37,998 nt of DNA, taken from positions 1-37,998 of the forward strand of contig JAEUJY010000030.1 of NCBI GenBank assembly GCA_016794525.1. The letters run 5' to 3'. The notes beneath the pieces are model-generated. The model was not told the DNA's origin, did not search any database, and saw only the letters and a program-made list of their open reading frames with translations. Origin of the DNA: Myxococcales bacterium (GTDB lineage: Bacteria > Myxococcota_A > Polyangia > Haliangiales > Haliangiaceae). The translations under genes and the position numbers were made by a program. Below are positions 26,050 to 27,760 of the stretch, piece by piece (within the stretch, counting starts at the first letter, position 1; each line of letters begins with the position of its first letter).

Positions 26050-26060
26050 CAGGTCGCGTG

Positions 26061-26141
26061 TGTCCGGGCCCGGACAGCCGCGCGTGTCCGGTGGCCGGCC
26101 GGATCCCGGCCATTTCGTCCGAGATTCGGACAAACCGGACA
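26061..26141. promoter_or_regulatory. Cluster of GTCCG/CGGAC palindromes upstream of comM-like gene
   Basis: Perfect 16-bp palindrome TGTCCGGGCCCGGACA (26061-26076); TGTCCGGT (26085-26092) and its inverse ACCGGACA (26134-26141); and GTCCGA-GAT-TCGGAC (26117-26131). Six half-sites in 81 bases, ending 59 bases before the ATG. Likely operator array for an unknown regulator. Confidence 0.65.
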
Positions 26142-26200
26142 GCGGCGCGCGCGGGTCCGCGGGGTTGCGCGTGGCACGCGACGTGCTGAGCGCCGGGACC

Positions 26201-27760
26201 ATGCTGGCGCGGATGAGGTCGTCGACGTTGCGAGGGATCGAAGCCACCCCGATCGACGTGGAGGTCGACGTGGTCGGCGGCTTGCCGTCGTACCACGTGG
26301 TCGGGCTGCCGACACCGTCGGTGCGCGAAGGCGCGGTGCGCATCCGCGCCGCGCTCGAGGCGATCGGCCAGGCGCTGCCGCAGAAGAAGATCACGATCAA
26401 CCTGGCGCCGGCCGATCTGCCCAAGCCCGGCACCGCGTTCGATCTGCCGATCGCGATCGGCGTGCTGCTGGCCGAGAGCGAGCTGGATCCGGCGCCGGTC
26501 GATGGCCTGATGCTGCTCGGTGAGCTCGGCCTCGACGGCACGCTGCGCGCGGTGCGCGGCGCGCTGGCGGCGGCGATCCTGGCGCGCGACCTGGGGCTGC
26601 GCGGCATCGTCGTGCCGGCGGCGTCGGCGGCCGAGGCCGCGGTGGTCGAGGGTATCGAGGTGCTGGCGGCCGATCACCTGGCCGAGGTGGTCGCGATGGT
26701 GGTCGGCGGCGTGCCGCTGCGGCGGGCCACGCCGCGCCTCGGCGGGCCGCGCAGCGCCAGCTTCGATCTGGCCGACGTGCGCGGGCAGCTGCTGGCGCGC
26801 GCCGCGCTCGAGGTCGCGGTCGCCGGCGGTCACAACCTCATGCTGGTCGGCCCGCCCGGCATCGGCAAGTCGATGCTGGCGCGGCGCATCCCGTCGATCT
26901 TGCCGCCGATGAGCCACGCCGAGGCGCTGGCGGTGACCAAGGTGTACTCGGCGATCGGCGCGGCGCCCGGCGGCCTGGTCGACGAGCGGCCGTTCCGCAG
27001 CCCGCACCACTCCGTGTCGGCGGCGGCGCTGCTCGGCGGCGGCAGCGTGCCGCGCCCGGGCGAGATCACGCTGGCGCACCACGGCGTCTTGTTCCTCGAC
27101 GAGCTGCCCGAGTTCCAGCGCGCGACGATCGAGTCGCTGCGCCAGCCCCTCGAGGATCGCGAGGTGGTCATCGGCCGCGCCCACGCGACCCTGCGCTTCC
27201 CGGCCAGCTTCCTGTTCGTCGCCGCCGCCAACCCGTGCCCGTGCGGCTGGGCCGGCTCGAAGCTGCGCGAGTGCACCTGCAGCGCCACCGCGATCGAGCG
27301 CTACCGCGGCCGGCTGTCGGGGCCGCTGCTCGATCGCATCGACCTCCACGTCCACGTGCCGCCGGTCGCGCTGGCCGAGCTGCGCGGCGCCGCGCCCGGC
27401 GAGCCGTCGGCGGCGGTGCGCGATCGGGTCATCGCCGCCCGCGACCGCCAGCGCGCCCGGCTGGCGCCGTGGGGCGTCGCCACCAACGCCGAGATGGGCC
27501 CCGCCGCCACCCGCGCCACCTGCGCGCTGAGCCCCGCCGCCGAGCAGTACCTCGCCCGCCTCGCCACCCAGCGCCGCGCGATGTCGGCGCGCACGATCGA
27601 TCGCCTGATCAAGGTCAGCCGCACCATCGCCGACCTCGCCGGCGCCGATCGCATCGAGCGCCCCCACCTCCAGGAGGCCGCCGGCTACCGCGCCTTCGAT
27701 CCCGAGCCGACGCAGCCGACGCCGCCAGCGTTCGAGGACGCGGGCGCGGTCAGCCGATGA
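26201..27760 (+). CDS. comM: ComM/YifB-family Mg-chelatase-like AAA+ ATPase
   Basis: 519 residues, close to the usual length of about 505. The N-terminal domain (ChlI fold) has LPSYHVVGLPTPSVREGAVRIRAAL and KKITINLAPADLPKPG. Walker A is GPPGIGKSM (Lys223), Walker B is LFLDELPEF, and later a zinc-like Cys group (CPCGWAGSKLRECTC) and DRIDLHVHVPPV, all typical of the family. ComM acts as a helicase in branch migration during natural transformation in proteobacteria; that role here is inferred. The start MLARMRSSTLRGIEA matches the MLAKV..S..L.GI start of the family, so 26201 is preferred over ATG 26213. Its 3' end overlaps the convergent gene by 11 bp. Confidence 0.92.
   Translation: MLARMRSSTLRGIEATPIDVEVDVVGGLPSYHVVGLPTPSVREGAVRIRAALEAIGQALPQKKITINLAPADLPKPGTAFDLPIAIGVLLAESELDPAPVDGLMLLGELGLDGTLRAVRGALAAAILARDLGLRGIVVPAASAAEAAVVEGIEVLAADHLAEVVAMVVGGVPLRRATPRLGGPRSASFDLADVRGQLLARAALEVAVAGGHNLMLVGPPGIGKSMLARRIPSILPPMSHAEALAVTKVYSAIGAAPGGLVDERPFRSPHHSVSAAALLGGGSVPRPGEITLAHHGVLFLDELPEFQRATIESLRQPLEDREVVIGRAHATLRFPASFLFVAAANPCPCGWAGSKLRECTCSATAIERYRGRLSGPLLDRIDLHVHVPPVALAELRGAAPGEPSAAVRDRVIAARDRQRARLAPWGVATNAEMGPAATRATCALSPAAEQYLARLATQRRAMSARTIDRLIKVSRTIADLAGADRIERPHLQEAAGYRAFDPEPTQPTPPAFEDAGAVSR

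Follow-up and report, generated by a model that had tools for sequence, protein, structure and literature searches.

A phased GTCCG/CGGAC array upstream of comM as a candidate sigma54 enhancer of a recombination and repair regulon

Introduction

What does a dense array of GTCCG/CGGAC half-sites do in front of a comM gene? The array lies in the window, the whole 37,998-nt stretch of myxobacterial DNA analyzed here, and was noticed in an original prediction made from the letters alone, which read it as cooperative binding by a regulator and proposed that, if comM is the target, a competence or DNA-damage switch might be at work. Here, we examine the array and its surroundings in the window, in the whole genome and in relatives, and we weigh the proteins and processes that could explain it.

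Results

The array is part of a unit that extends to the comM start codon

The original prediction holds for the array itself: six half-sites occur within 81 bases (26061-26141), and they include a perfect 16-bp palindrome, TGTCCGGGCCCGGACA, and two nested inverted pairs, the outer one formed by TGTCCGGT (26085-26092) with ACCGGACA (26134-26141), and the inner one by GTCCGA-GAT-TCGGAC (26117-26131). That count is the highest for any 81 bases in the window. In 100 third-order Markov simulations the maxima were 2, 3 and 4 in 51, 48 and 1 cases, never more than 4. Judged by the sequence, that description was incomplete rather than wrong. It missed a putative sigma54-type promoter just 5' of the comM ATG, and together with a variant dyad, of a GGCCGGA type that recurs in other arrays of the genome, this promoter extends the unit to the ATG at 26201 (Table 1).

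Table 1. Features of the array-promoter unit upstream of comM. Distances are from the GG of the -24 element.
Feature	Positions	Strand	Sequence or product	Distance from -24 GG	Basis
Distal dyad, perfect 16-bp palindrome	26061..26076		TGTCCGGGCCCGGACA	half-sites ~-111, ~-102	sequence, geometry
Half-site	26085..26091	+	TGTCCGG	~-87	sequence, geometry
Variant dyad	26097..26111		GGCCGGATCCCGGCC		sequence
Proximal dyad	26117..26132		GTCCGAGATTCGGACA	half-sites ~-56, ~-46	sequence, geometry
Most proximal half-site	26135..26141	-	CCGGACA	~-37	sequence, geometry
Conserved promoter core (model R1/R2 region)	26156..26190	+	includes CGCGGGGTTG block		alignment/profile
Sigma54-type promoter stretch continuing the array	26161-26187				sequence
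Predicted sigma54 -24/-12 element	26172..26187	+	TGGCACG-CGAC-GTGCT, TGGCACGCGACGTGCT		11/12 consensus positions
comM, predicted target	26201..27760	+	YifB-family Mg-chelatase-like AAA ATPase, 519 aa		Pfam, NCBIfam TIGR00368

The sigma54 consensus used for scoring is TGGCACG-N4-TTGC(T/A), with GG and GC at -24 and -12. At least 10 of its 12 positions are matched within 60 nt of the start in 19/25 comM orthologues, compared with 0.2% of control windows; the comM of Anaeromyxobacter matches 11/12, and no such consensus is seen upstream of comM in Geobacter or in the examined members of other phyla. The genome encodes rpoN (PF04552, E-value 2e-65). In the window the comM ATG follows the -12 GC by 14 nt; transcription is predicted to start at about 26198, which leaves a leader of about 3 nt. 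comM would thus be transcribed almost without a leader (26187-26203), and the leaders predicted in most relatives are 1-6 nt long. The recA leader is longer, and many genomes have a GGAGG-like site in it.

All 22 aligned promoters share the TT of the CGCGGGGTTG block, a few bases 5' of the -24 element. A TTG at the same place is also found at sigma54-like promoters that have no array (L178, L321, L322, L326, L333), so that this feature is probably general to the sigma54 promoters of the lineage and suggests an extended sigma54 promoter.

Half-sites are in helical phase with the promoter

Relative to the -24 GG, half-sites cluster at about -36, -46, -57, -67, -78, -88 and beyond. Periodicity is strongest at 10.5 bp, where R reaches 0.611 against a null maximum of 0.313 from 1000 random shifts per promoter. 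This value comes from 38 promoters (183 half-sites) that include orthologues and are therefore not all independent; the phase lock holds for three genes and many genomes. Within the genome that holds the window, the units show a matching half-site spacing of about 10.5 bp. Such a phase lock is what proteins lined up along one face of the DNA should produce, and it fits the cooperative binding originally proposed, for which we can now point to a candidate regulator (see below). The proximal half-sites are about 60 bp from the predicted start, and many known enhancers sit farther away.

About 30 units precede recombination, nuclease and transposase genes

The genome scan suggested as a check of the original prediction finds no random scatter. 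The pattern TGTCCGG-N0-4-CCGGACA has 26 copies in the 9.8-Mb genome and TGTCCG-N2-7-CGGACA has 53, each with none for the reversed control pattern, and the dense arrays sit at promoters. Many of the dyads are in arrays like that of the window, followed by CGCGGGGTTG-N5-GGC(A/G)CG-N5-TGC(T/A) and then usually by a start codon; the other dyads inspected are mostly isolated, without an array. A profile of the downstream block (R1) recovers nearly 30 array loci among the best 150 candidates scored, and the dyads add a few more, which puts the array-promoter units at about 30, and possibly more in the genome. All dense arrays inspected are 5' of a sigma54-like block, in fixed orientation and phase.

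In the window's genome, the units precede comM, recA and radC (RecA and RadC by Pfam). Other targets are genes for REP-associated tyrosine transposases (NCBIfam E-values of 1e-7 and 3e-14, below the cut-off), for a Uma2-type nuclease (a weak match here, clear in relatives), for a lamin-tail-domain protein and for a short putative lipoprotein. About 19 HNH-nuclease-like genes also carry units; the clearest one tested passes the Pfam cut-off, and as most of the copies are paralogues they are not independent evidence. In the sister species, units are found before comM, recA, Uma2, REP-transposase-like, putative lipoprotein and small-protein genes.

Many of the HNH gene copies are at contig ends (L036, L040-L044, L051, L053, L057, L061, L063), which would follow if the paralogues were long repeats at which the assembly breaks. 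One unannotated protein of 84-93 aa is an array target in four species (L066:2088-2366:+, L320:1202-1453:-, L304:1203-1460:-, L327:497-754:+). Its C-terminal tip, DLPF, ELPF or ALPF, resembles SSB tails; it has no match in Pfam or NCBIfam, and a sequence search of solved structures returned only weak, short matches. Sister genomes have a second nuclease-like family with arrays (L169, L175, L328, L330), which starts with VPTxDHEAP and by eye resembles the PD-(D/E)XK/Rpn type, with no clear Pfam match.

This gene content bears on whether the switch serves competence. The trio of comM, recA and radC recalls late competence genes. ComM is also the canonical branch-migration helicase of Gram-negative transformation (PMC11612176), and the array could then belong to a competence regulon in which the switch activates genes for integrating DNA during natural transformation. 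We consider this unlikely, given that HNH, Uma2 and REP-transposase genes dominate the target list, and that no array is detected near comEC or dprA, which are both present, in the stretches examined near them, where start codons and operon starts are only approximate. Of the proposed competence or DNA-damage switch, the likelier side seems to be recombination or repair, to which the apparent co-control of recA, radC, comM and nuclease genes points; competence as the whole story becomes less likely with comEC and dprA lacking a detected array, and these sequences give no support to a full competence regulon.

The arrays are conserved across genera

The array precedes comM in 6/6 relatives of the same genus, and also in other genera and families, as the original prediction would have it. 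In 25 genomes, the regions upstream of comM contain 105 half-sites, where dinucleotide shuffles give 26 ± 5; the corresponding dyad counts are 24 and 0.2. The enrichment extends to recA of the regulon type (17 genomes; 72 half-sites versus 21 shuffled, 16 dyads versus 0.16) and to the gene of the bacterial enhancer-binding protein (EBP) described below (18 genomes; 99 versus 36, and 11 versus 0.2). Upstream of the other recA type (11 genomes), we find no enrichment and no dyads. Three comM orthologues are without an array (G008, G037, G038). In another genome (G036), recA is directly behind comM on the same strand, and a single promoter may serve both.

Units, phasing, conservation and gene content are all read directly from the sequences, and they bear on two readings in which the array would have no function. 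One is chance: two-copy palindromes rich in GC are common in DNA of 75% GC. We reject chance clustering on the Markov simulations, the reversed-pattern control, the shuffles and the control windows, and we regard its probability as negligible. The other is that the arrays are a dispersed, REP-like mobile repeat, moved by the REP-associated transposases and without regulatory role. The palindromic units are indeed repeated, and at least four REP-transposase-like genes adjoin copies. Against this, orthologous comM and recA genes keep their arrays across genera while the surrounding sequence diverges, and the dense arrays inspected are not the extragenic copies untied to promoters that would characterize REP/BIME elements. 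With orientation, position relative to the sigma54 element and start codon, and helical phase all fixed, we reject the mobile repeat as the main reading and hold it to be very improbable.

An FHA-type EBP is the candidate regulator

In a sister genome (G004), an array-promoter unit is found 5' of a gene for an FHA-sigma54 activator. The orthologue in the window's genome, L027:1454-2896:-, is 63% identical to it and lies directly 3' of another array. Pfam identifies FHA, Sigma54_activat and C-terminal HTH domains in this protein, and its sequence includes the GAFTGA motif. An array precedes the EBP gene in 12/14 orthologues, versus 2/20 paralogous activators, when a weak criterion is applied (4 or more upstream half-sites per 130 nt). 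The EBP orthologues read share the recognition helix (K/R)ST(F/L). Upstream of the EBP gene of one genome (G009), locus L207 has tandem units of about 40 bp containing CCTCCGGGGTTGCG, 5' of the array. We identify L027:1454-2896:- as the most likely activator of the array promoters. Its FHA domain suggests a phosphothreonine input. FHA domains usually carry an arginine where the candidate appears to have a lysine (VGKG).

The array could also bind a different protein, such as a WYL, XRE or other activator or repressor, with the FHA-EBP merely a target and another EBP acting at the promoter. Two EBP orthologues, in G006 (99% complete) and G017, have no array, and G006 keeps the array at comM and recA; G036 has comM dyads and no close EBP orthologue was seen in it. 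XRE and WYL proteins are among the known regulators of the DNA-damage responses of Myxococcus xanthus and mycobacteria (PMC12288472). Yet the phase lock to the sigma54 -24 element suits an EBP, and among EBP genes the array marks the FHA-EBP subfamily, which has its own conserved recognition helix. A different protein at the array thus appears unlikely to us.

Discussion

We think it probable that the array is a set of enhancer sites for the FHA-EBP at a sigma54 promoter, and that it drives comM within a LexA-independent recombination and repair regulon. Several recA and EBP promoters have a degenerate GC at -12, which counts against this explanation, as do the closeness of the proximal sites to the start, the EBP genes of G006 and G017 without an array, and the comM dyads of G036, where no close EBP orthologue was seen. 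We infer binding, sigma54 dependence, the identity of the EBP and the inducing signal as follows. EBP dimers would bind adjacent GTCCG/CGGAC half-sites cooperatively along one face of the helix, and the bound EBP would assemble its AAA+ ring; at the expense of ATP, the ring would open the complex of sigma54 and RNA polymerase, turning comM on. As the EBP gene bears its own array and promoter, positive autoregulation would follow. The same switch would also drive recA, radC, REP transposases, Uma2, HNH nuclease-like genes and small unannotated proteins, in a regulon that may have a link to transformation. A phosphothreonine signal is the probable input; the FHA domain would read it, perhaps once DNA damage has occurred.

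The closest known systems are sigma54 promoters with upstream activator sites and the myxobacterial FHA-EBPs. The -24/-12 element, the upstream dyads and the putatively autoregulated activator gene have counterparts there, and the candidate shares the GAFTGA, AAA+ and HTH elements as well as the FHA input domain. The differences are in the targets, here recombination and nuclease genes, and in the array, here with up to about 8 half-sites in helical phase that begin about 60 bp upstream of the start. Sigma54 enhancers and FHA-EBPs are thus known; the array, the regulon and its proposed role appear to be new as far as we found, since the papers searched describe neither the array motif nor any sigma54/FHA protein that regulates recA or comM. 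COG2003 is the RadC family. A survey of sigma54 regulons lists COG2003 among the enriched repair genes (PMC12316311).

The LexA/SOS system of M. xanthus likewise controls recA and repair genes, and the window's genome has two recA genes, as does M. xanthus (PMC7029660). Together with its 75% GC, its size and its many EBPs, these two genes make it probable that the host belongs to the Myxococcota. LexA control of comM is rejected: no GTTC, the mark of a GTTC-type LexA box, is seen in the comM upstream region (26050-26200), whereas lexA and the second recA have such boxes and no array. In the second recA (L292:403; G000 C5), the LexA-box-like CTGAACAGGTGTTC is about 240 nt upstream. With array-promoter units at recA, radC, nuclease and activator genes, the lineage seems to have a second control circuit for DNA recombination genes alongside SOS. 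UV and mitomycin C both induce recA1 of M. xanthus, although this gene is independent of LexA (PMC7029660, PMC12288472). Mitomycin C also induces three sigma54-dependent regulators there (PMC12288472), MXAN_0353, MXAN_3418 and MXAN_5879; by analogy, the signal here could be DNA damage.

Other LexA-independent or sigma54-dependent repair systems are alike in part. The LexA-independent response of M. xanthus, which involves DdiA and other factors, shares the LexA-independent induction of recA1, but DdiA belongs to the XRE regulators rather than to the EBPs. PafBC is a WYL-domain activator that works without sigma54, unlike the proposed array system. Its regulon in mycobacteria shares LexA-independent activation of DNA-repair genes (PMC5656591, PMC12288472). 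In Salmonella, the RtcR/sigma54 RNA-repair operon also relies on sigma54 and an EBP, and its expression is linked to DNA damage (PMC9879122); RtcR, however, is a CARF-type EBP (PMC7790460), and its targets are RNA-repair rather than recombination genes.

A broader proposal is that sigma54 and the FHA-EBP form a second master switch for homologous recombination, one that acts independently of LexA, in several families of one class (probably Myxococcota), gated by a kinase through the phased array, with a gene set of recA, comM, radC, the small protein with the SSB-like tail, nucleases and REP transposases. For this proposal, we see the chances as evenly balanced. In myxobacteria, a LexA-independent DNA-damage response has been known since 2003; for this response, our analysis supplies a candidate activator, a DNA motif and a gene list that are directly testable. 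The nuclease and transposase genes within the group hint at controlled genome plasticity. If sigma54 control of recA and comM is true, recombination in these bacteria would be strictly activator-dependent and coupled to phosphothreonine signalling, unlike the derepression of SOS.
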